In this document: in pieces, positions 49,095 to 64,000 of the stretch
How the letters are laid out: the number at the start of each line of letters is the position of its first letter
How positions within the stretch are numbered: the stretch's first letter is position 1
Assembly: GCA_928724745.1 (NCBI GenBank)
Contig: CAKMXJ010000019.1
Location: 607,637 to 671,636, forward strand
DNA from: Anthracocystis setariae
Taxonomy: Eukaryota; Basidiomycota; Ustilaginomycetes; Ustilaginales; Ustilaginaceae
DNA length: 64,000 bases
Direction of reading: 5' to 3'
Position numbers and translations under genes: made by a program
The notes under the pieces: model-generated
The model's database searches: none
What the model saw: only the letters and a program-made list of their open reading frames with translations
Told to the model about the DNA's origin: nothing

Positions 49095-52000
49095 ATGTCT
49101 CAGCACAGTGTTACCCCTGCTGACGGTGCTGATGCTGGCATCAACACCATCCTGCCTCCTCCTGCAATCATTGTTGCAGCATCTCCTCCTCCAGCTCCAA
49201 CTGCTGAGTTTGACAGGTACGTCAACCCATTTTCATGCATCACTACTTTCCCATCTGTTTCTGACCGTTACCTTTTCCAATTCCACCTCTGCGACAGCAA
49301 TGCTCTCCCTACTGCCAACCAGGATGCTGCCGCTGGTCCGGTTGATCCAGACCTTGTTGACCAGCTGGAACGCTTCCAACTACGCCTGGTGCACCATCCC
49401 CGGATCTTGGTCTGCACCCGCACCAACTGCCATCTTCAAGTTCCGCTGGACCCCTCCTTTGACAAAGTGCTTATGCACCTCCAGAGTGACCATCAACTTG
49501 CGCTTGGTGACCGGAGGATCTCCGCACTCAGGGAGCTGCTGTTGGTGCTGGACTTGGATCCTCCCAACACGGTGGTCATCAACAAAGACCTTCTTCCGGT
49601 GCCTATGATCAAGGAACTGCAAGTCATGTACGGTGGCTATGCCTGTCCCTTCTGCTCCTATGCAGTCATGGCACGCTCTGCTGCACGCAAGCACCTTAAG
49701 AACAACCATGGTGATCCAAAGGAGGTCACGCTTACGCACCCAGTGGCTTTGCATCTTCTTTACAAGAATGGCCAGAACAAACGCTTCCTCTACGTCTACA
49801 ACCAGGAGCTCAACCCTATGCCTCCTCAGCCTCCTGCCATCACCATTGCTGTACCAGAGCTCACTGTTGACATCAAAGAAAGGGTGAAAGCGTTCCTCAA
49901 GAAGGATCAGGAGATCCTTGAAGCAGCCAACCTCCTTGATTCCGGTGTGCAGCCTCAAGAGTACATGGGCAATATGGGTCCCTGGGTGGAAGCGCTCCAG
50001 TGGCACCATTACTGGGCTGGTAAGCCGGTTGCTGCCATGAGCAAGGTCTTCACCACTTGGCCAGGTGCGCACCGGGACATGGCTCTCTGGGTGTACCATA
50101 CTGCACGTCCGCTGGTCTTCATGTGGTTCAACAACTTCCTCTGCGCTGGCCGTCAGATCCAGCAGATGTTCCGCAGCTACGGTCTGGAAGCTACACATCC
50201 CTACAACCTGAAGCCAACCACGGTGGAGAAGCGCTCAGATGGGTGGTCCCACCTACTTGCGCTCCTGTTCTGTCTCTACTTTGATGGAGATCAGAATGAG
50301 TTCTTTGTCAATGGCAGGGATCTGGACGACCATCTATCCCTGGATCACAACATCTGCACTCTACTGTGCAAGATCAAGGACCTCTACAACACATCCTACC
50401 CAGAAATCAACGTGGATGAGGATCTGGAGCTGGGGGAGAAGGTGGCATCCCTTCTGCTTGACTTGTCGTATGCTCTACTTGCACAGGAGCCAGCACGCTT
50501 TGGCCATACAGAGGAGCTTACGGTGTCAAGGCTGGTGCTTCACTTTTGCCTAAGCAACGAAGGTACACCAAAGATGCTGAGCGCATGCACATCAAACATT
50601 GCAGGGATTGAGTTTGCTCTACGTGCAGTGCTCCATGAGTACCTTTTGGATCCAGAAGCAGGAGCGCTCAGCAACATCTCTCATGTGGACAAGCATGCAG
50701 AGGTGATGTCATACATCAAGCGCTTTCTCTGGAATGACAGCCACTCCACCAGCGCCCATCTTCAAAGTCTCCTCCGGTATGGCAAGGTGCTGGCCCAGGA
50801 TGATGGCACCAGCTTCACCTTTGTGTGGAGCAAGGATCTCAGCAGCGTCAAGTTCAGCACAGAGATCATTGCTATTGAGCGTCTCCAAGCTATGATGCAA
50901 GGTGCTCAACAGCAAGCAGAAACTCTTTTGCGTTACCTTCTGCTTTTGGATGAGGAGACGCCTCTCATGCTGGACCTCAACACCTTCAACGATGATCTGC
51001 GCAATACCGTGCCAGACTTCAACTTTGCCGATGCATCCTCCTTAGATCCATGCACGCCAGTCATTCTCCAACGTGCTGCTGGAGGCAACCTTCCTGCACC
51101 TGCACCGTTGGCAGACTACTTTGATGGAGAGCCAGAGTTTGATGCTGCTGCTGCGCGCTTGTACTTTGCAAAGCATGACGAGTTCACCAAGCTCCTGGCA
51201 GTGCTGGTTGAGCTCAGCAGCGGACTTCCAGCAAGAGGTACAGAGCTGTTGCAATTGCAGCACACCAACTCACACATCTCTCCCCGCAACATCTTCATCC
51301 ATGATGGATGCATCTTTACCGCATTGCCAACCAACAAGGGTACTGGACGCCAGAAGATCATTCCACGCTTCCTGCCGCATGCCGTTGGATGTTTGGTGGT
51401 GCACTATGTGATGCAGGTGGTGCCCTTTGTACGCCAACTCCACAATGCTGTCCTCCATGCCCGAGCACCCTCCTACTTCCTCTTGGCAGACCACACCGGC
51501 AAGCAGTACATCACCACCACCATCAGCAAGACGCTCCAGATGCTGTGCCAGCAGTACATCAGCTCTTCCTCTGAAGGTCTCAACATGCGCACTTGGAGGC
51601 AATTGGCAGTGAGCATCGATCGCAAGCTTATTTGGCCAAAGCCAGTCACGGTGGAAGAGCTGGAGGAGGACAATGCTCATGATCTCCAAGCAGGCCACTC
51701 CACCAACACTGCAGAGAAGCACTACGGACTTGATGCAAGTACGCTCAGCCAGCTCACGCAAGAGAGCATGGATGCAATGCTGGTGGTGTCAGAGCGCTGG
51801 CACACATTTTGGAGGCTACGCTCCCGCTATGGTGAAGACCTCAAGCCATTTGGCAGTCTCTCCTACGGTGGTCCAGCTGCAGACCAGTCCAAGGTGATGG
51901 AAGCTGTGAAGCATAAGCTGGACTTGATGGGGGAGGATGTACGCAGCATCAAGCAAAAGTTGGAGCACACTCCTGTTTCTGCTCCTGCTGTTGTCACTGC

Positions 52001-53996
52001 GGCAACCTCTTCCAATCCATCACGCTCAGCAGCGCTTCCAATCCCAGTCAGCAATGCTCTATTCAAGGTCACCAGCAGCTCTTACACCAAGACGCTGGAG
52101 CAGGCCTATGCTCTCAATGCTATCTATGCCAAGGAGTCTCCGCTTACCATTGTCATGGCCACTGGTTCTGGCAAGTCTGCGCTCTTTATGTCACCACTGC
52201 ATTGGCTGCCGGCTGCTTCTGTTGTCATAGTGGTGGTGCCGTTCATTGCATTGACCGAGGATCTTCTGGAGCAGTGTCGCCATGTTGGCATCTCTGCAAG
52301 CAAGTGGACTGGCTATCGATGTGCTGACAAGGTGGAAGGCTCCCAGCTGGTCCTTGTTGCTGCAGAGAACTGCTACGACAAGATGTTTGTCAACTGGGCA
52401 CAGGAGCTGGATCTGCAGAAGCGTTTGGCAGCCATCTTCTTTGATGAGTGCCATGTCTGTGTGACACAGAGTGACTTCCGTAATGCCATGCACAAGATCA
52501 AGGCTCTGGTCACCTCTGTGCGTGTACCGCAATACTTCCTCACAGCAACACTGCCGCCAAGCATGGTGCAGACCTTCAAGGCTACGCTCCACCTCCCTCA
52601 AGATGGCACTGGTCTCATCCGAGCAGCAACCAACCGTTCCAACATTGCATATGCGGTGGTTGGCGTCAACAATGCTGCAGAGATGTTGCCCAGGCTCAAG
52701 CGTCTCCTTGCTGCCACTCCTTCTGGTGCAGTCATGGTCTTTTGCAAAAGCTGCTATGCAGCAGAAGAGACCGCAAAGATCCTTGGTTGCAAGTGCATAT
52801 ACTCGGAGATGAATCTTGCAGAAAAGCAACTGAAGCTTGCTGACTGGTTGCAGTGCTCACCAGAGGAGCCCGATGATGCCAAGCGTATTTTGGTTGGGAC
52901 TTCAGCCATTGGCACTGGCATCAATCCTCAGCATGTACGTCTGGTGGTCCATTATGGTGATGCATGGGACATGGTCAGCTACGTTCAGGAGTCTGGCCGT
53001 GCCGGACGTAGCGGTGCACAAGCTTCTGCTGTGCTGCTCATTGCCAAGCAACAGGCTCAACAGGAAGAGCAGATGCAGCTTTATGTTGCAGAAAAGCATT
53101 GCCGGCGCACAGCCATCTCTGCATATGTTGATGGCATGCAGGTGAACTGCCGGAGCCAGCCCAACTTTGCGCTGTGTGATCTGTGCCAAAAGGACACTGT
53201 TGTTCCGCAGACACCGCCAAGGGTACCCACAGCACTGGACTCACCGCCAGAGTCAGACAAGCAGGAATGCAAGGCAAGTAGCAGCAACATGACACCAACG
53301 CGTAGCAGTGCAACCATTGCTGCAAGCCACCGTTTGCTGCAGTCTGCTACCGCAGCAGATACTCCTCCATCAACAGTGCAGTGCCAGCGCCAGCTCACCA
53401 ACGTATTGCAACTTGCACCGCCTGCAGGTGTAGGTACAGCAGCTACGTACCAGAGCATTGCAGCGCCTCCACTGTACCGTATACCAGCGCCAACCTTGTC
53501 TACCGGTATTGGTGCCATCAAGACACTGCTGGATAGCGTACCTGATGGCTGTACGCTCTGCTTCCTCTTCCGTGACCAGCACACCTGTGTTGGTCAACAC
53601 CGCTTCCATGACTGCAACTGCTGGAATGCACTCAAGACCATTGGTGGGCTTGGCACAGATCAGCGTATCAACTCGAGCTGGCTTGGCAAGATGAAGAAGC
53701 TCATCAATGCAGGGCAGAGATCAGGTATTGCATGCTACCGGTGCTTGATCCCCATTGACATTGCCAAGCCCAACAACCACGGTGCTTGCTCCAACAAGCA
53801 TGATGACAAGGTACTGCCAGTGGTGGCAGCGGTGCTGAGAAGTGAGGAGCAGTGTGCGTTGGTGTACCGCAAACTGGGAATAGCATACAGCGGTCTGGAG
53901 CAGGCATGGAAAGATCTTGGCACGCATGTGCGCTACAAGGATGTTGATGTGTTGCTTGCCTTTGCCATATTTGCTGCTGCGGTGGAGCTCACATAA
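49095..53996 (+). CDS. Telomere-linked RecQ-type helicase with zinc fingers and tyrosine-recombinase-like domain
   Basis: 1,633 residues from ATG 49095 (MSQHSVTPADGADAG). Two C2H2-type fingers lie at residues 107-133 and 184-205 (CPFC...H....H). Residues about 640-930 show a tyrosine-recombinase arrangement: R714 in SSGLPARGTELLQLQ, K748 in PTNKGTGRQKIIPR, R835 in TWRQLAVSI, and H868 with Y877 in AGHSTNTAEKHYG. The SF2 helicase follows: Walker A ATGSGKS (1022-1028), DECH (1117-1120), FLTATLP, and motif VI QESGRAGRSG (1298-1307). The C-terminus has Cys/His clusters (CYRCLI...HGAC). Subtelomeric RecQ-like helicases are known in smuts (UTASa) and other fungi. The recombinase assignment is my motif reading. 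It may be a structural gene of a mobile or telomere-maintenance element. All key motifs look intact. Confidence 0.88.
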   Translation: MSQHSVTPADGADAGINTILPPPAIIVAASPPPAPTAEFDRYVNPFSCITTFPSVSDRYLFQFHLCDSNALPTANQDAAAGPVDPDLVDQLERFQLRLVHHPRILVCTRTNCHLQVPLDPSFDKVLMHLQSDHQLALGDRRISALRELLLVLDLDPPNTVVINKDLLPVPMIKELQVMYGGYACPFCSYAVMARSAARKHLKNNHGDPKEVTLTHPVALHLLYKNGQNKRFLYVYNQELNPMPPQPPAITIAVPELTVDIKERVKAFLKKDQEILEAANLLDSGVQPQEYMGNMGPWVEALQWHHYWAGKPVAAMSKVFTTWPGAHRDMALWVYHTARPLVFMWFNNFLCAGRQIQQMFRSYGLEATHPYNLKPTTVEKRSDGWSHLLALLFCLYFDGDQNEFFVNGRDLDDHLSLDHNICTLLCKIKDLYNTSYPEINVDEDLELGEKVASLLLDLSYALLAQEPARFGHTEELTVSRLVLHFCLSNEGTPKMLSACTSNIAGIEFALRAVLHEYLLDPEAGALSNISHVDKHAEVMSYIKRFLWNDSHSTSAHLQSLLRYGKVLAQDDGTSFTFVWSKDLSSVKFSTEIIAIERLQAMMQGAQQQAETLLRYLLLLDEETPLMLDLNTFNDDLRNTVPDFNFADASSLDPCTPVILQRAAGGNLPAPAPLADYFDGEPEFDAAAARLYFAKHDEFTKLLAVLVELSSGLPARGTELLQLQHTNSHISPRNIFIHDGCIFTALPTNKGTGRQKIIPRFLPHAVGCLVVHYVMQVVPFVRQLHNAVLHARAPSYFLLADHTGKQYITTTISKTLQMLCQQYISSSSEGLNMRTWRQLAVSIDRKLIWPKPVTVEELEEDNAHDLQAGHSTNTAEKHYGLDASTLSQLTQESMDAMLVVSERWHTFWRLRSRYGEDLKPFGSLSYGGPAADQSKVMEAVKHKLDLMGEDVRSIKQKLEHTPVSAPAVVTAATSSNPSRSAALPIPVSNALFKVTSSSYTKTLEQAYALNAIYAKESPLTIVMATGSGKSALFMSPLHWLPAASVVIVVVPFIALTEDLLEQCRHVGISASKWTGYRCADKVEGSQLVLVAAENCYDKMFVNWAQELDLQKRLAAIFFDECHVCVTQSDFRNAMHKIKALVTSVRVPQYFLTATLPPSMVQTFKATLHLPQDGTGLIRAATNRSNIAYAVVGVNNAAEMLPRLKRLLAATPSGAVMVFCKSCYAAEETAKILGCKCIYSEMNLAEKQLKLADWLQCSPEEPDDAKRILVGTSAIGTGINPQHVRLVVHYGDAWDMVSYVQESGRAGRSGAQASAVLLIAKQQAQQEEQMQLYVAEKHCRRTAISAYVDGMQVNCRSQPNFALCDLCQKDTVVPQTPPRVPTALDSPPESDKQECKASSSNMTPTRSSATIAASHRLLQSATAADTPPSTVQCQRQLTNVLQLAPPAGVGTAATYQSIAAPPLYRIPAPTLSTGIGAIKTLLDSVPDGCTLCFLFRDQHTCVGQHRFHDCNCWNALKTIGGLGTDQRINSSWLGKMKKLINAGQRSGIACYRCLIPIDIAKPNNHGACSNKHDDKVLPVVAAVLRSEEQCALVYRKLGIAYSGLEQAWKDLGTHVRYKDVDVLLAFAIFAAAVELT
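49217..49297 (+). other. Candidate 81-nt in-frame intron in the helicase gene
   Basis: GTACGT at 49217, CTGAC branch-like site at about 49261 and CAG at 49295-49297 after a T/C-rich tract. The length is 27 codons without a stop, so both spliced (D-S junction) and retained forms stay in frame. Confidence 0.5.
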
Positions 53997-54400: not shown

Positions 54401-54554
54401 TGACTTTGTTTTTTGCTGTTGTACTGACATTGTTCTGTGTCTAGCAGACGGGAAAGCATGGGAACCACAGGACAAGTACAAAGCAGTCTGTGTTGAAGAT
54501 GGAGAGTCAAATCACGGAGAGCCTTCTTTCCTTTGCGGTAATTGAATTTTCCAA

Positions 54555-54955
54555 GGCAGCACAGCACAGAGGGGGACGTGTCTCTGAGAATCAGATTTTT
54601 GCTCGGAGAGGAAAGTCCCCCTTTGCCAGAAGTTCGAAGGCAAATTACTTGGATTTTTCAAGGCAGCCCAGCACAGTGGGGGGACGTGTCTCTGAGAATC
54701 AGATTTTTGCTCAGAGAGACAAGTCCCCCTTTGCTGGAAGTTCGAAGCCAAATTGCTTGGAAATATTTTTCAGGCAGCCCAGCACAGTGGGGGGACGTGT
54801 CTCTGAGATTCAGATTTTTGCTCAGAGAGACAAGTCCCCCTTTGCTGGAAGTTCGAAGCCAAATTGCTTGGAAATAGTTTTCAGGCAGCACAGCACAGTG
54901 GGGGACTTGTCTCTTCGATCTACTTTTTGAATCTGAGAGACAAGTCCCCCTCCTT
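54555..54955. repeat. Four tandem hairpin units of about 107-111 bp
   Basis: Units begin with GGCAGC(A/C)CAGCACAG at 54555, 54662, 54773 and 54884. Each carries a GGGGAC(G/T)TGTCTCT arm followed by an AGAGA(C/G)(A/G)AAGTCCCC-type arm. In the last unit the arms are perfect over 15 bp (54900-54914 and 54936-54950). The array ends just before the dioxygenase start codon, so it may lie in its promoter or leader. Confidence 0.93.
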
Positions 54956-55001
54956 CTCGATGCTGAACTGTTGCAATCACCCCAGACCTCTTAATACATC
55001 C

Positions 55002-56024
55002 ATGCCAGCCAAGTCTCAAGCAGCTTTGGATCGAAAGAAGGAGGCCACAGCAGTCAGGGATGCAGAGAGAAGGAGAAGCTATCGAGACTTACAAAAGGAG
55101 ACCTACAAGATCCATCTTTCTCGAAGGCATCATATCAACAAGGCCTCAGCCCTATCCAGCTTCGATGATCTTGAGCTCAAACCACTTGGAGAGGTCAATG
55201 ACAAGTATCCAACTCGAAGAAACCTGACTCTAGTGGACAGACAGAGCAAACAGATCGTGCTTCAGAGGATTTCACCTACCAGTTACACCAAAATGCTCGA
55301 AGCTAGAGCATCCTCCATCAAAGGTCGAGACTACCTGAATGCATACCTATCCAAGAAGGCCTCAGCATGGCATATCAAGAGGTCAGACATCAAGTCTAGC
55401 AAGCAGCAGCTCAAGTTCAAGCTCACAAGAAGGAAAGTTGTCGAACATCATCTTGGCATCTGGCATTCTCGAGGCAAAACCAGCCTAGACTTCACCAAAG
55501 AGACCTCCAATCATCGATACAAGGATCAAGCACTCGATCTTCTCCTCTGGGCAAAGCAGCACATGGCCAGCACAATGCAATCTTCGAAGAAATTGATTGA
55601 TTCCAGCTTCAGACACAACCTCAAGACTCGAAGCAAAAGTACCAAGTGGCTAGCCTCGATCTTTGAACCATCCAATGTCGACCTTCTCCACCCCTACTGG
55701 ACCACTATAGCCTTCTTCTCCAACTTTGCAGGGGGTCTACATCGAGATGAGCAGGATTGTATCCCTTCCTTCCTATTCAACTTCGAAGAAGCAGCTTGGC
55801 TGGAGCTGCCAGAGTTCTCGGTCAAGATCCTTATCAATCCTCTCGACATGGTCATACTCAACTCTCACACCTACTGGCATCGAACCAAACCTGTGGATTC
55901 TGAGTCTACAGCTGGAAAGAGATGGGCATTCAGTGGTTTCTATCGAGAGTCCATCTACAATCAAGAACCTATCACTAGCATTGCACATAAGAGACTCGAG
56001 GCTATCAATGAGAAGCACAAGTAA
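55002..56024 (+). CDS. TET/JBP-like 2-oxoglutarate/Fe(II) dioxygenase
   Basis: 340 residues from MPAKSQAALDRKKEATAV; an in-frame ATG at 54960 would add 14 residues. The N-terminal 190 residues are basic and helical (AERRRSYRDLQKETYKIHLS), suited to DNA contact. The catalytic double-stranded beta-helix has H247-x-D249 in FAGGLHRDEQD, the spacing motif WLELPEFSVKILINPLDMVI, H293 in YWHRTKP, and 2-oxoglutarate-binding R307 in GKRWAFSGFYR. This layout matches the fungal TET/JBP group, which oxidises 5-methylcytosine or thymine and is expanded next to transposons in basidiomycetes. The assignment is by motif, not by search. It lies 1 kb after the helicase on the same strand; the hairpin array sits directly upstream. 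Confidence 0.72.
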   Translation: MPAKSQAALDRKKEATAVRDAERRRSYRDLQKETYKIHLSRRHHINKASALSSFDDLELKPLGEVNDKYPTRRNLTLVDRQSKQIVLQRISPTSYTKMLEARASSIKGRDYLNAYLSKKASAWHIKRSDIKSSKQQLKFKLTRRKVVEHHLGIWHSRGKTSLDFTKETSNHRYKDQALDLLLWAKQHMASTMQSSKKLIDSSFRHNLKTRSKSTKWLASIFEPSNVDLLHPYWTTIAFFSNFAGGLHRDEQDCIPSFLFNFEEAAWLELPEFSVKILINPLDMVILNSHTYWHRTKPVDSESTAGKRWAFSGFYRESIYNQEPITSIAHKRLEAINEKHK

Positions 56025-56415
56025 TTCCATTCCAGACTCGAAGGGAAAAAGGGGGGATTCTGAATGACCAGCTCCAAAAAGGCTCGAGACCCCCAAAATC
56101 TGACCTGGCTGAAAATTTTTGCCGAGTTTCCCCTATTTTGATCCTGCCACCCAAGTCTGATTTCCGAGTTCCATAATTTCCCTGACGTGTTTTTTTGCAT
56201 TCTGAGTGTTAGTTCATACCGAGTGTTGGTCCAATTGATGATTTTGGTCAGGTATTCCTCATTGGCACGTGTTCTTGACCTTCTGCGTGGTCTGGTATAT
56301 ACCCTTGCTGATACAGAGCCTCAACAAGAACACGCTTTACTGGATCTCTGCCATATGTAGGAAGTAGCACCAGTCCAAGACGTACACAGTGCACAAAAAG
56401 ACAGGTCAAAAAGCT
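56025..56415. other. 3' region of the dioxygenase gene
   Basis: No gene. Possible 3' UTR with a run of G/A and an AT-rich stretch near 56111-56200. Confidence 0.5.
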
Positions 56416-57490
56416 TGCGTTTTCAGGTACTTACCTTTGACATGCCTTTATCTGTCCAAAATCAGCCAATAAAGGCATGTCAAAGTGAAGTCACGCATAG
56501 GTGAAGCTATCAAGGCGCAACTTGGTGTTCCAAACTCAGGATGAGCCTGTGCAATGTCCTATAGGGTAGAGCCACCAAGAAACAAACCTTTGCATTCACG
56601 CGTGTTTCCTTGCGGATCAGTAGCAGCACCCGGTTTCCGCATGGATAGCTGGAACACCTCTGAGAGACAAATGGCTGTCATAGGCAGCTGCAGCAGGTTG
56701 AGAGGAGTCCAGAACACTATTTTGCGTGGAAGATTTCTTGCGTTTTCAGGTACTTACCTTTGACATGCCTTTATCTGTCCAAAATCAGCCAATAAAGGCA
56801 TGTCAAAGTGAAGTCACGCATAGGTGAAGCTATCAAGGCGCAACTTGGTGTTCCAAACTCAGGATGAGCCTGTGCAATGTCCTATAGGGTAGAGCCACCA
56901 AGAAACAAACCTTTGCATTCACGCGTGTTTCCTTGCGGATCAGTAGCAGCACCCAGTTTCCACATGGATAGCTGGAACACCTCTGAGAGACAAATGGCTG
57001 TCATAGGCAGCTGCAGCAGGTTGAGAGGAGTCCAGAACACTATTTTGCGTGGAAGATTTCTTGCGTTTTCAGGTACTTACCTTTGACATGCCTTTATCTG
57101 TCCAAAATCAGCTAATAAAGGCATGTCAAGGTAAAGTCCCCGGTCTTGGGTCCATTTTGGATCTGCCTTTTGTGTACACACTCAGAAGAGGTTGCTCCAG
57201 TGTCCTATAGGCTAGAAAGTGGGACAGCTACACTTTAGCTTTCACGCTGTTGCCTACCCCAGCACCTCCTCCAGCAGTGAATTATGCAAAGTGCTCAGGG
57301 AGCAAATCCTATGCTATAAGACACTGCATGATGCTGAAGGGACCTCAGAACACTCATTTGCGTGGAGAATATCTTGCGATTTATTGTACCTGCCTTTGAC
57401 ATGCCTTTAATCATCTGAAATCAGCAACTAAAGGCATGTCAAGGTAAGATTGGTGGGAGCAAGTCCACTTTGAGTCTGTCTTTTGTGGAC
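56416..57490. repeat. 323-bp tandem repeat with conserved 16-bp stem-loop
   Basis: Two near-identical 323-bp units (56416-56738, 56739-57061), a diverged third (57062-57374) and a partial fourth (from 57375). Each contains TTTGACATGCCTTTAT and its complement; in unit 1 the arms are 56436-56451 and 56469-56484 with a 17-nt loop. In unit 4 the loop differs while the stem is kept. A 69-codon ORF recurs in units 1 and 2 but shows no sign of selection. Confidence 0.93.
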
Positions 57491-58585: not shown

Positions 58586-59893
58586 ATATATATATCACAC
58601 AGGCCAGGATCAGTGTCCATCACAATCTCCAGGTGCAATGTATCTTTGTCGGTACAACTACGATCACGTGCTTGCGTCAGCAAGCTGTGTGTGTCAACAA
58701 GAGTGTCAGCAAAGCGTGTCAACATGCAACAGCAGTGTACAAAGCAGTGTCTGCGTGTCTGCCACCCAGTTCTCCATGTCGCTACACACCATCACCGTGT
58801 CAGCTGTATCGGAGGTATGTGAACTTGTGTTTCAGGTGTTGGACACCGTAACCAAGGTGTGGAGCTTGCTGACTGCTGCTGCAGCGCTCCGATAGGACCA
58901 ACAAGCATGTCAACATGCACACACAGGGTGTAGACTGTCCAAAAAGGCGTTACAAGGGGATCTTGTGGTAGGGCTGAAGACATAACACCCCCTTCTCTGT
59001 GCATTACTGGATAGTGCTAGGTGAGTTTGGCTGAAGTCATTAAGTGGCCCTACGCAAGTTGACTATAAAAACAGGTCAGGGCGGGTCACCGAAAGTAGGG
59101 TCGGGACCCCGGGTCGAGGTAGGGTCTGAGAACTTTTTTTGGATTTTGAGGGATCTGATGCCGCAGGAAGGTGCGTAATGGAGAAATAGGAATGTATGCA
59201 AGAAAGCAGGGATGGGGAATGCATACTGAGGGTGTAGGGGCAGCAGAAGTTGAAAAACGGCCAAATCCAAAGGGGGGACCATGGGAGCATTTTGTGGACC
59301 AAAAAAGTGGCTTGGATGGACTGCATCTCTTAATGACATACATGTCAAATGGTGCCAAATGGCTGTATCTGCAAGGTCAATGCTGTACCGGTTGCGGTTG
59401 CAGCTGGGTAGGGTGAAACGTGTCGGCCAGGCCCTACCCCCGTAGGGTTGGACTCTTCTGGCATAATAAGTGGCCATTTTTTGATGTGCGCTGGGGTTCT
59501 CTGGCATGCAGGAGCCATATCAGACACTATCTAAGCAAGTTGTCTTCCAGGCCCTAGGGCTAAAATTTTTTGGGACCTGAACCTAGCCCTAGCCCTACCC
59601 TGGTCAGGTAGGGCCGACCTGAACTTGTATATTGAGACACTGCTGTTGAATGTGCGGTGAGGCTCTCACACCTTCTAAAGATGATTCAACCACTTTGCAG
59701 GTCTGTCTGCCTCTTTTGGTCAGTCACCGGTAGGGCCACCAAACACCACAGACAGGAAGGTGTAGACGTGTATACTATTATGTATTGGAGCGACTATTTA
59801 CATGGTCTAGGGGAAAAAACCCAGTGGGAAAAAAGTGCCCTAGACCCCACAACTATTTACATACGGAACACAGAACTTGGAACTTGGAACAGA
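58586..59893. other. TAGGG/CCCTA-rich DNA, no gene
   Basis: No convincing ORF in either direction. TAGGG or CCCTA words recur about a dozen times between 59090 and 59735, including CCCTACCCCCGTAGGG (a small hairpin near 59435) and CCTAGCCCTAGCCCTACC (59582-59599). Confidence 0.55.
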
Positions 59894-62254
59894 TCAGGGG
59901 AACAGGAGCTCATAATGCTGGGACTTGGCCAGGTGAAACAGGCCATAGTGGGGTCCCTCTGCATTGTGAGGGTAGACGGTGCCATGGCTGTCACCGGTCT
60001 GAGGGTCTATGCCAGAGTAGACCATGATTGAGATGCTGAATGCCTGCGCAATGGCCATGAGCATGATCTCGTCACCCCATGTTCCTGGCTTGGCCATGTT
60101 AGCCAGGTATGTGGCAGCGGAGAGATGCCCATCGCCCTGGGCCGCAAATGCCAGCAGGATGTCAGGATTCCGCTGCAGCCAGTGGATTGCTTTTGTCCTG
60201 ACCATCATATGCTGGTCTTGGTTGCCTGTCAGGTGGTATGCCATGGCCCTGAACATGCAGTTGCCATCCCTGCCAATGATGTTGCTGACCTTCAGACCAT
60301 ACAGGTTGCGAAGCGTAGCAGCCAGTACAGTGACTCTGTCAACAGCATGGAGGCTGGGCTTGCTCTGCAGTGGCTGACGGGAGGGCAGGGTGACTGCTGG
60401 TGATACCACCAGCTCAGCCACAAAGGGGTTGGGTGTCTCCCTGCATCTGCGGTCTGGGCTGGAGACCAGCTCTGCATCAAGCTCATCCAAGATGGCCTGA
60501 ATGCTAGCGCTGGTCTCTGCGCTGCTGCTCCTAACCACAGCAGGGGCTGGCAATGCTGCTGGGAGGAGCACCACCGCATCTGTGCCATGTGTGTGCAGCT
60601 CCACCGTTGGTGCTGCCACTGCAGGAGAGAGACGCCTACGCAGACGGTTGCTCTGACGGCGTGGACCATGCAGAGGATGGACAGGAGCCTGGTCAGCTGA
60701 GGAATCAGAGTTGCTGCCAAGGTCAGGCATGTCGACATCCTCCTCCTCTGTAGTGACTGCCTCCATTGCTGCTGCCTCTGGCTCTGGCACTGGCTCTGGA
60801 CCCAAGTCTACCGTCAGACGGCCTTGATCAAGCAGCTGGCCAAAGTACTCTCGAGCCTGCTCTTGATTGAGGCGTGCCTTGCAGCCAGTGCACTGCAGGC
60901 GGAACTGACGGCGCCCACCTTGGTTGTACAGTGCTGGCGCTGGTCTCTGACACTTGGGACACGGTGTCTGACCTTTGATCTGGCCAAAGAAGCTACGCAG
61001 AGCATCCATGGTGCGCAGACGGCGCTTCAGGAGAGCCTTGGATGGCTGACGGCGCTCCTCAGCCTGTGTTTCCATCTCCACATCATTGCTGGTGATCACT
61101 GGTGCTTCTCCTTGAGAGTGGAGCCACCAGGCAGCTGGATGATCCCAGCGTGTTGGCTCAAAGCGTCCAGTATGCCAACCCAGCGCATTGAAGAGGTCAA
61201 TGATGATCTGCTGGGAGTCAGGGTGAGGAGAGCGGCTGTTATTGCCAGAGAACACCTGTTGCTCATCTGCTTTGGCCAGCAGATCACGCAGGTTCTTGAT
61301 GTAGTCCTCCTTGTTGATCTTGATGCTCCGTATCTTGTACAGCTCCATTGCCTCAACCCGTGGCGTCATGTACTGGGTTATATTGAGCACAGGAGTAGCC
61401 GTGATGTTGCGTACAGCAAGGCTGAGGGTTGGGCTGGTGATCGTAGCCTCAACCCGTATGCCACCAAGCTGTTGGCTTGATAGCTTCTCCATGTGCGCCA
61501 GATGGCCAAGCAGGGTTGCTCTCCGCTTCTTGCAGATGTAGATTGACTTTGGCTTGTTGAGCATGTGGTTGCCAGCCTGTGCCTTGATCTGGTGGACGAT
61601 GCGTGGATAGATCTTCACCCGATATGTCTCACCACCGTACTGGACCGGCATCTGGACACCGCCAAAGCCCTGGCCCACCGGTGTGAGGATGGGATACTGC
61701 TGGAGGCCAGGGATGCTGTCATGTCGGTTGGTCACAAGCCAGATGTTCTGGCTGGGCCAGTTACATGCCAGGTCAAAGGTATTGAGGTCCGACATTGGGT
61801 GTTGAGGGTTGCCAAGGTCTGGACCGTCATATGGGTAGTTGACCCACATCTTCATGCCGTAGCCTTGGACTCTGACAGTATCAACACCTGCCTTCTGCAG
61901 ACAGTTGATGAAGACACTGCAGGTGATCACCTGATTGCCCCGGATCAGAGCTTCAGGATAGTCGGAGCCCAGCATGATGATGTCGGCGGAGATGAGGACG
62001 TTGAGGAGCGGGATCTTGAACTTTGGGTGGATCTTGATGTTGAAGACGCACTGGCCAGCGCTGACCCAGTCCTTGAATGTGGGATGGTCCTTGATGGTGG
62101 GAGCGTGACTGACCAACTGAACAGGTGACATTGGCTTGAACACCTGGAGTAAGTCTTTGGGGTACAGGCTGATGTTCCACGCATCGAGGTCACGTGGAGC
62201 CATGAATCCTTTGGTGACTTGATGATCCATCCTAATGGGCAATGGATGGTCCAT
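59894..62254 (-). CDS. OTU-domain cysteine protease protein with zinc ribbon
   Basis: 786 residues from ATG 62254 (MDHPLPIRMDHQVTKGF); the frame upstream has no ATG. Residues 1-400 form a globular region I do not recognise (LDAWNISLYPKDLLQVFKPM, VFNIKIHPKFKIPLLNVLIS, PSQNIWLVTNRHDSIPGLQQ). A zinc ribbon follows (CPKC...CTGC). A low-complexity acidic/Ala-rich linker leads to a C-terminal OTU domain: IIGRDGNCMFRAMAYHL has the catalytic Asp and Cys, and SQHYELLFP at the very end supplies the His. OTU proteins remove ubiquitin or related modifiers and also occur in transposable elements and viruses. A TATA box and a dense heat-shock-element array lie upstream. It reads towards the rest of the island. 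Single exon, no obvious decay. Confidence 0.78.
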   Translation of the reverse strand: MDHPLPIRMDHQVTKGFMAPRDLDAWNISLYPKDLLQVFKPMSPVQLVSHAPTIKDHPTFKDWVSAGQCVFNIKIHPKFKIPLLNVLISADIIMLGSDYPEALIRGNQVITCSVFINCLQKAGVDTVRVQGYGMKMWVNYPYDGPDLGNPQHPMSDLNTFDLACNWPSQNIWLVTNRHDSIPGLQQYPILTPVGQGFGGVQMPVQYGGETYRVKIYPRIVHQIKAQAGNHMLNKPKSIYICKKRRATLLGHLAHMEKLSSQQLGGIRVEATITSPTLSLAVRNITATPVLNITQYMTPRVEAMELYKIRSIKINKEDYIKNLRDLLAKADEQQVFSGNNSRSPHPDSQQIIIDLFNALGWHTGRFEPTRWDHPAAWWLHSQGEAPVITSNDVEMETQAEERRQPSKALLKRRLRTMDALRSFFGQIKGQTPCPKCQRPAPALYNQGGRRQFRLQCTGCKARLNQEQAREYFGQLLDQGRLTVDLGPEPVPEPEAAAMEAVTTEEEDVDMPDLGSNSDSSADQAPVHPLHGPRRQSNRLRRRLSPAVAAPTVELHTHGTDAVVLLPAALPAPAVVRSSSAETSASIQAILDELDAELVSSPDRRCRETPNPFVAELVVSPAVTLPSRQPLQSKPSLHAVDRVTVLAATLRNLYGLKVSNIIGRDGNCMFRAMAYHLTGNQDQHMMVRTKAIHWLQRNPDILLAFAAQGDGHLSAATYLANMAKPGTWGDEIMLMAIAQAFSISIMVYSGIDPQTGDSHGTVYPHNAEGPHYGLFHLAKSQHYELLFP

Positions 62255-62781
62255 TGTGACGCTCTCAAGGGAATAGAGAGGTGCTGAAAAGAAGAGAGGA
62301 TTGCTTGGGCGTCTGTGCTGTGTCTGGCGCAAAGTGAGTTGATGTTGCTCGGTCGTTTGATTTGTCCAATGCTTGAGGTCTTGATGTCCTGGGATCTTGA
62401 GGAGGGTTCCTGTGGATGATAATGGGCTTGGTGCAACGTCAAGAAGAGGCTATTGACAAGGTCTTGAGGTGGTCTTGTTGTCTTGAGGTCCTTTGCTTTG
62501 GATTGCTTGATGCTCTTGAGGTTTGTTGACTTTTTTTGTTCCACCAGAGGTGATCTTCCAATCTCCACTAGATATGGTTGGCCAAGCCACGTCTAGCAGA
62601 GAATACAGAAGACAAGACGCCGGGCAGGAGCTCTGTATAGGGACTAGTCACCTAAGTCAAGAGACAGCACCAGTCGTCTTAGAACACGTCAACTCACTTG
62701 CAGACTTCTTGAGGCACAGGGATACGCACACACACTGAAAAAGCGACAAGGAAAGAGCCAGATAGGTGGGAGAAAGGGCCT
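62255..62781. other. Leader region of the OTU gene
   Basis: About 530 bp between the TATA-like element and the OTU start codon, with CTTGAGG/CCTCAAG words repeated near 62370-62520. A further open minus frame overlaps the coding start but has no recognisable product. Confidence 0.45.
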
Positions 62782-62792
62782 GTATATATACC
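62782..62792 (-). promoter_or_regulatory. TATA box candidate for the OTU gene
   Basis: GTATATATACC on the + strand reads GGTATATATAC on the minus strand, about 530 bp upstream of the OTU start and 150 bp downstream of the nearest strong heat-shock element. Confidence 0.45.
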
Positions 62793-62855
62793 TTTCATCC
62801 CCCTGACATATGGCGCAGAAATTCGCTTTTTTTGCCACCGTGGAGCCATCTAGAA

Positions 62856-63490
62856 AGCAGTGGAAGCTCCTGAGCACAGCCACATGCACAGCCACGCACA
62901 GCCACATGCACAGCCACGCTTCCAGCACTTTCCATCACCTTCCGGAAGGTTCCAAAACCAGTTTCCATGGGGTTCCACATGCTTCCATTGGTTTCTGGAA
63001 CATTCTGAAAGATTCCAGAAGTTTCTACTGCACAGCCACATGCACAGCCACATTTCCACAACATTCTGGAAGATTCCGGAACCTTCTATCACTTTCCATC
63101 GGCTTCCATGACCTTCTATTGGGTTCCATCTGCTTCCATCAGCTACCGGAAGGTTCTAGAAGGTTCTGCCATGCACAGCCACATGCACAGCCAAGCTTCC
63201 ACAACATTCCGGAACCTTCTATCACTTTCCATCGGCTTCCATGACCTTCTATTGGGTTCCATCTGCTTCCATCAGCTACCGGAAGGTTCTAGAAGGTTCT
63301 GCCATGCACAGCCACATGCACAGCCAAGCTTCCACAACATTCCGGAACCTTCTATCACTTTCCATCGGCTTCCATGACCTTCTATTGGGTTCCATCTGCT
63401 TCCATCAGCTACCGGAAGGTTCTAGAAGGTTCTGCCATGCACAGCCACATGCACAGCCAAGCTTCCACAACATTCCGGAACCTTCTATCA
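62856..63490. promoter_or_regulatory. Dense heat-shock-element (nGAAn/nTTCn) array
   Basis: Alternating GAA and TTC pentamers in strict 5-bp phase. Runs are at 62939-62953 (three units), 62993-63025 (six of seven), 63064-63086 (five of five) and 63149-63166 (four of four). The last recurs at 63282 and 63415, and three-unit runs are at 63207, 63340 and 63473. Between the runs TTC recurs every 10 bp. Three or more inverted nGAAn units define the heat shock factor site. CACATGCACAGC-type repeats are interspersed. Confidence 0.7.
63078..63490. repeat. 133-bp tandem repeat, three copies plus a partial
   Basis: GGAACCTTCTATCAC starts units at 63078, 63211, 63344 and 63477. The copies are almost identical, so they arose recently. 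Each unit carries a four-pentamer and a three-pentamer heat-shock element. Confidence 0.95.
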
Positions 63491-64000
63491 CCGTAGCAGG
63501 CGTAGTTGACGTAAATGTACGTCTGCGCGTACATGTTGGCTGGTGGCGACGGTGAGCAAGCCAAACTTTGGGGGCTGCTTGGGGTCAGTGTGTGCACTAT
63601 ATGGGTACACTTTGGCATGCCAAAGGCTTGGTGCGGTAGCTGCAGCGTAGGGGCCGCAGATGGGGAGTCAAGTTTGACTCATGGAGGATCCCGAGCTTCC
63701 CGAGCTTCCCGAGCTATTCCGACGCATTCCGAGCTCCCCGAGGTAATTTTCCGAGTTTCCGTGTCGGAAAATTTTTTTCGCTTTTTTGCAATGACAGATT
63801 GTGTTAATTGGCACAATCTAACAAATCTGGAAATGTCGGAAAATTTCCGCTTTTTTTGCAATGCAGAACGTGTTACTCAACGCAATCTAACATGTTCAAG
63901 AACGTCCAAAATCCTTGCTTTTTTGTGGTGTCGGATCGTGTTGATGACGTTGATCAAAGGGTTATTAGAGGTTCTGGTGCTCAAGGAAAAACCACTTGGC
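63491..64000. other. Right edge, degenerate short repeats, no gene
   Basis: CCCGAGCTT-type words repeat near 63690-63740. Three diverged units of about 70 bp start near 63765, 63837 and 63906, each with a T-run, TTTGCAATG-type sequence and GTGTT. The first contains perfect arms AGATTGTG and CACAATCT. No ORF. Confidence 0.6.

Follow-up and report, generated by a model that had tools for sequence, protein, structure and literature searches.

A phased array of heat-shock-element sequences upstream of a subtelomeric OTU gene in Anthracocystis setariae

A block of ~630 bp (62856-63490) upstream of a subtelomeric OTU gene of Anthracocystis setariae can be read as a succession of heat-shock elements (HSEs), some canonical (nTTCnnGAAnnTTCn) and others of the step type with a TTC at 10-bp intervals. 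The block is predicted to bind trimers of the heat shock factor (HSF) and probably activates the OTU gene in response to heat or protein stress. We assign this reading a probability of about 0.65. The identity of the block as heat-shock elements is very likely, and its function as a heat-responsive promoter of the OTU gene is likely. The window, i.e. the whole stretch of DNA analysed here, comprises the last 64 kb of one contig (C18, 607637-671636) in a 21.5-Mb genome of 36 contigs.

The block contains 61 TTC/GAA triplets, and 52 of the 60 spacings between successive triplets are multiples of 5 bp (binomial probability 2e-28). Because a 133-bp unit is repeated 3.2 times within the block, the phase test was redone on 62920-63166, a stretch that excludes this amplification. 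Here, 25 of the 29 spacings were in phase (binomial probability 3e-14), a number that was reached in none of 5000 first-order shuffles of the same stretch. Among triplet pairs with at least eight occurrences in this stretch, GAA/TTC had 86% of its spacings in phase, followed by a runner-up pair with 39%. The original prediction placed TTC and GAA in one 5-bp phase; this holds within the runs, where the phase is constant, but not for the block as a whole, as the phase resets from run to run.

We defined a phased run as a series of TTC/GAA units in which one pentamer at most may be skipped, and found nine such runs (Table 1). In 2000 shuffles of the block, the longest run had 4 units and was attained in 18 of the shuffles. 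Outside the block, the window contains 15 runs of at least 3 units, four of which have 4 units and none more. The excess over shuffled sequence that the original prediction called for was borne out both for the spacings and for the run lengths, and runs of 3, 4, 5 and 6 of 7 pentamers are indeed present, the last at 62993-63025. Likewise, the recurrence of TTC every 10 bp was confirmed in the block sequence. The 133-bp unit is amplified as predicted, but it does not carry two single elements; each full unit consists of one 9-unit array, one 4-unit array and a spacer, and the array is broken off mid-unit at 63490. With a generic HSF pentamer score, without training on A. setariae sites, 63054-63166 reached 45.2 bits, compared with maxima of 19.7 bits in 62 one-kb tiles and 17.4 bits in 500 shuffles. 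Inverted nGAAn units, at least three in 5-bp phase, occur in the block beyond chance.

Table 1. Features of the block, the OTU gene and the chromosome-end module. Positions are those of the window; for 5' ends, the contigs of the copies are given.
Feature	Position	Strand	Detail
Heat-shock-element array	62920-63485	.	nine phased TTC/GAA runs
Phased run 1	62920-62952		5 units
Phased run 2	62963-63025		9 units
Phased run 3	63054-63136		11 units
Phased run 4	63149-63166		4 units
Phased run 5	63197-63269		9 units
Phased run 6	63282-63299		4 units
Phased run 7	63330-63402		9 units
Phased run 8	63415-63432		4 units
Phased run 9	63463-63485		4 units
133-bp tandem unit	63073-63491	.	3.2 copies
Spacer repeats CACAGCCACATGCACAGCCA	62875-62916	+	sequence repeat; two, 22-bp period
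Further CACAGCCACATGCACAGCCA spacer copies	63031-63050, 63174-63193, 63307-63326, 63440-63459		
TATA-like GTATATATAC	62782-62791	-	~130 bp from nearest phased run
Predicted 5'-UTR intron	62284-62697	-	414 nt, GTGAGT ... TCCTCTCTTCTTTTCAG; inferred from sequence, ahead of ATG
OTU gene	59894-62254	-	one ORF, 786 aa
OTU cysteine-protease domain	59996-60268	-	residues 663-753, PF02338, 1.3e-11
Module 3' region to fixed terminus	58949-59893	-	gene strand ...CCCCTTGTAA; + strand TTACAAGGGG from 58950
5' end of module copy	63490		C18
5' end of module copy	63372		C19, C36
5' end of module copy	62715		two C9 copies
5' end of module copy	62359		C31, C32
5' end of module copy	61817		C9
5' end of module copy	61350		C28, C30
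5' end of module copy	60102		C9
5' end of module copy	59933		C34, then telomere run
5' end of module copy	59607		C8, C6
5' end of module copy	59449		C23, TTAGGG at contig end

A DNA search found the block in three copies in the genome (C18, C19 and C36), in line with the expectation that it would recur at other subtelomeres. The three copies differ by two substitutions, one single-base gap and the spacer copy number. The four-unit site GAAnnTTCnnGAAnnTTC occurs at 10 places in the genome, all within these copies (four in C18, three in C19 and three in C36), and its reversed control gave no genome-wide match. This count covers one register; the TTC-first four-unit form is present once per block in all three copies. 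The exact 20-mer CACAGCCACATGCACAGCCA was found at 16 places, again all in the three blocks. The pattern TTCnnGAAnnTTC had 146 matches in the genome against 189 for the reversed pattern. The three blocks account for 39 of these matches (15 in C18 and 12 in C19 among the matches listed, and 12 in C36 counted separately), which leaves 107 outside the blocks against the 189 of the reversed pattern; hence, the blocks are enriched and the genome at large is not. Four TTC in 10-bp steps gave 74 matches, 57 of them inside the three blocks. Its reversed control, with 73 matches, is of little use because CTT too recurs every 10 bp in the block.

Base constraint was studied in 23 decamers, taken in three fixed registers. 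TTC was present in 22 of them (in three of the 22 by choice of register), and YR directly followed in all 23. Columns 8 and 9 contained ~0.8 bits, and columns 6, 7 and 10 contained 0.05-0.28 bits. These values bear on the alternative that the block is a subtelomeric minisatellite, grown by slippage of a TTCC-rich 10-mer and of the 133-bp unit, in which the likeness to HSEs would be a functionless by-product. Such an origin is consistent with the 133-bp and 22-bp tandem repeats, with a 22-bp spacer whose copy number varies between copies, with the subtelomeric position and with the weak arrays at chaperone genes described below. A decayed repeat should, however, drift alike in all columns, whereas here TTC is retained and there is hardly any constraint on columns 6, 7 and 10. 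Moreover, 14 of the 15 GAA triplets between 62920 and 63490 keep the phase of the adjacent triplets, and the 106-bp array at 62920-63025 and the 113-bp array at 63054-63166 differ in sequence but share a common design. We regard the minisatellite origin as decidedly unlikely. HSF prefers a purine ahead of GAA, and the purine found before each GAA in the block fits this preference. A coding repeat was also considered, as open frames of ~110 aa cross the block, but it was rejected since neither repeat length (133 or 22 bp) is divisible by 3.

The reading of the block as HSEs raises the question which factor would bind it. The genome encodes five HSF-type DNA-binding domains above the Pfam cut-off; the protein on C14 has an Hsf1-like helix, while that on C5 has a receiver-type C-terminus, presumably as in Skn7. 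Skn7-like and Sfl1-like proteins are classes of the HSF family, and canonical runs of four or five units favour trimeric Hsf1. The array might bind another member of the family of the Skn7-like or Sfl1-like kind, and would then respond to oxidative, cell-wall or morphogenetic signals, or mediate repression. Five HSF domains, one of them in a protein with a receiver-type C-terminus, make this conceivable, and an atypical step-type element was reported to be repressive in the human UBC promoter (PMC4552642). With lengths of four and five units, the long canonical runs in the block nevertheless point to trimeric Hsf1, and we consider binding by another family member unlikely.

The generic HSF score was applied to seven chaperone stretches (five of the seven HSP70-family genes, HSP90 and a Clp/HSP104-like gene). 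They scored 8.7-18.4 bits, none above the background maximum; in two stretches (L046, L049) the start codon was not placed. The highest score was obtained for the HSP104-like gene (18.4 bits, ~380-440 bp before the ATG), followed by one HSP70 gene (14.0 bits) and an HSP110-like gene (13.0 bits). Weak phased runs occurred in four of the seven stretches, and runs of at least 3 units amounted to 6 per 10.1 kb compared with ~2.4 expected, a mild enrichment. The weakness of these arrays is an argument against regarding the HSF code of the species itself as established. With regard to the proposed HSF-responsive promoter, the sequence strongly supports HSEs at a promoter position, and the chaperone stretches show weak arrays only.

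The array sits ~130 bp upstream of the TATA-like box, ahead of the OTU gene. This box had been predicted and was found; GTATATATAC is the same in the C19 and C36 copies. The OTU open reading frame combines an N-terminal part common to a large subtelomeric family, a CxxC..CxxC motif and a C-terminal OTU domain. Its predicted fold had a mean pLDDT of 59 (9 sequences in the alignment). The best fold match of the OTU part was OTUD1 (4bop), in a region where the model is mostly below pLDDT 50, and the PDB matches listed (50 of 168) were OTU proteins or complexes of them. The motifs DGNC and HY, which we take to be the catalytic motifs of an OTU protease, were present in seven of the nine aligned sequences. 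Four copies of the gene are intact (C18, C19, C31 and C32), with a dN/dS of 0.16-0.28 across the six pairs. Relatives elsewhere comprised 8 proteins. The N-terminal family, with 63 matches that lie mostly close to contig ends, extends down to 29% identity, with open frames of up to ~1180 aa, and the diverged matches mostly span the N-terminal part of the protein alone.

The OTU gene is part of a telomere-associated element, a context that is well supported by its structure. The last 506 bp of the module occur in 15 copies in the genome, which share one 3' terminus, TTACAAGG, at 12 distinct flanks. The exact terminus was found in 13 copies with 10 flanks; the C8 and C6 copies, at two further flanks, have the same TTACAAGG and depart from the exact form a few bases later. 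Of the 12 flanks, seven have GGG at their end, four of these as TTAGGG, and five are without a GGG end. In contrast to this fixed 3' end at many sites, the 5' truncation facing the chromosome end is variable, with ten different 5' ends among the 15 copies (Table 1). The 5' end of the gene is directed toward the nearer contig end in all 15 copies, where for C34 and C23 the contig end was taken from where the locus stops. On C9, one copy is truncated and the next one follows it head-to-tail across a TTAGGG seam, and on the C36 contig a long TTAGGG run lies no more than ~20 bases from the contig end. In C31 and C32, which carry an intact gene, the sequence upstream of 62359 has been replaced, up to a stretch shared from 63489. 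Two C9 copies start 67 bp from the TATA box and have retained the predicted intron.

A module that looks mobile and has a fixed end, together with inverted half-sites able to pair, could also suggest that the block serves DNA structure or recombination, as a hairpin-forming subterminal repeat bound by a transposase or telomere factor, rather than being a promoter. However, single-strand DNA folding of three stretches was only slightly better than that of shuffles (z of -1.4, -1.5 and -1.9), and the module has its fixed end on the side away from the block. Furthermore, the block is kept solely in the three copies that reach far enough in the 5' direction, and is missing from 12 of the 15 copies. 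A role of this kind is very improbable.

Pfam gave the OTU domain alone in the OTU reading frame and no reverse transcriptase (RT). None of the four RT matches examined, out of 150, had the module 3' terminus. The array itself was the only source of repeats of at least 40 bases in 58945-63490, and this stretch showed no LTRs or terminal direct repeats. Five diverged loci (L019, L029, L030, L031 and L033; 35-40% identity) have CCTTGTAAC ~1.5 kb past the match, followed by CCCTAA repeats in three of the five, and the other 12 of the 17 diverged loci had no CCTTGTAAC-type end within the flank covered. The HSF score of all 17 (L017-L033, with at most 1.5 kb of flank and less in L018 and L020) was at most 18.3, i.e. 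at background level.

Several further observations concern the surroundings of the module. At least six other module types start or end with the same TTACAAGG, with two to five flanks each and often after TTAGGG (L039, L042, L019, L026, L029-L033 and other loci); possibly, the repeat types ending in TTACAAGG form a superfamily of telomere-end modules. Distal of the gene, 63489-63958 is ~96% shared with C19, C36, C31 and C32; in its counterparts elsewhere a different sequence of 1.8 kb or 1 kb intervenes, with breakpoints at telomere-like seams. Proximal of the module there are tandem repeats of 111 bp (3.7 copies, 54546-54951) and 323 bp (2.2 copies, 56414-57138). A 1633-aa reading frame (49095-53996, + strand) resembles a telomere-linked helicase; it has an OrsD-like stretch below the cut-off, a DEAD/helicase-C pair and a weak RecQ zinc-binding match, and to our eye its middle recalls a tyrosine recombinase motif. 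A 354-aa reading frame (54960-56024, + strand) had no Pfam match up to E 0.1. The window also contains a GH62 enzyme, whose nearest solved relative is UmAbf62A, which we take to be an Ustilago maydis protein.

If the block acts as a heat-responsive promoter, HSF would bind along the array and, in spite of the subtelomeric chromatin, drive transcription that starts in the TATA region. New copies may arise by insertion at telomere 3' ends, through target-primed copying of the transcript with RT supplied in trans. The two C9 copies begin at 62715, as RNA copies started from the TATA box might, but the intron they retain argues against copying from a spliced transcript. Copying of RNA could not by itself preserve the array, because a transcript from the TATA box would not contain it. 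Exchange between chromosome ends may also spread copies, and the three copies with an array would be either parental copies or the outcome of such exchange. Recombination at telomere repeats alone would probably be insufficient, because the same end is also found at flanks without such repeats. Both block types break off partway through a 133-bp unit, which makes it probable that the array was once longer. Copies without the 5' side, two with an intact reading frame among them, would no longer answer heat shock; C31 and C32 are predicted not to be heat-responsive because their upstream part has been replaced. A more far-reaching scenario, which we offer tentatively and consider rather doubtful, is a telomere-colonising OTU element wired to the host heat-shock response, in which stress, acting through a self-amplifying promoter of HSF sites, both expresses the OTU protein and supplies further copies to the chromosome ends.

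ONSEN is an LTR element of the Copia type, and Helitrons have a Rep/helicase gene. ONSEN of Arabidopsis and the Helitron clusters of Caenorhabditis are, like the module, repeated elements with HSEs or heat-activated (PMC6927752). In contrast to both, the module yields an OTU gene only, without Copia polyprotein, LTRs or terminal direct repeats. In fungi, the HSEs of Hsf1 in Candida albicans and Saccharomyces cerevisiae consist of inverted nGAAn in 5-bp phase and TTCn7TTC, as in the block; TTCnnGAAnnTTC and TTCn7TTC are reported in Hsf1-bound sites of C. albicans, where the extreme is two promoters that each hold up to nine motifs (PMC4894976). The block, in contrast, has 61 half-sites in ~630 bp and includes a tandem amplification. 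Among basidiomycete mobile elements, the LTRs of Cryptococcus TCN3 and TCN12 contain putative HSF sites (PMC12810828), one or two per LTR compared with dozens in a dedicated array in the module; mobilisation was measured in that work, whereas for the module it is a prediction from sequence. The same 2026 paper states that activation of elements by heat shock via host machinery had not been described in fungi (PMC12810828).

The module further resembles MoTeR2 and FoTeR in a 3' end that abuts telomere repeats at some of its flanks, 5' truncation, head-to-tail arrays and TTAGGG seams (PMC7367193, PMC12857005), and the features of these elements that it shares include the fixed 3' end at many sites and the variable 5' truncation facing the chromosome end. 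MoTeR2 is an RT-less member and offers the nearest likeness to the RT-less module (PMC7367193). MoTeR/FoTeR carry an RT or an insert of unknown nature, however, whereas the module carries an OTU gene, has an HSE array upstream and shares TTACAAGG with several module types. Among the titles and abstract openings listed for open PMC papers, none described an HSE array at an OTU gene near a telomere, and a paper on fungal telomeres gave no hit for Ustilago or OTU (PMC8381367).

If the array works, it would be the densest natural HSF promoter known to us. It would also make it testable whether fungal mobile elements exploit the host heat-shock response, with this locus as a candidate and with a built-in control, since the same gene occurs with the array (C18, C19) and with its upstream part replaced (C31, C32). 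A module with a fixed end and the shared TTACAAGG terminus would add another class to the telomere-inserting elements, one that here carries a gene for an OTU protease. Should the more doubtful scenario of stress-fed copying onto chromosome ends be true, A. setariae would harbour a heat-shock-driven fungal mobile element with a dedicated HSF array.
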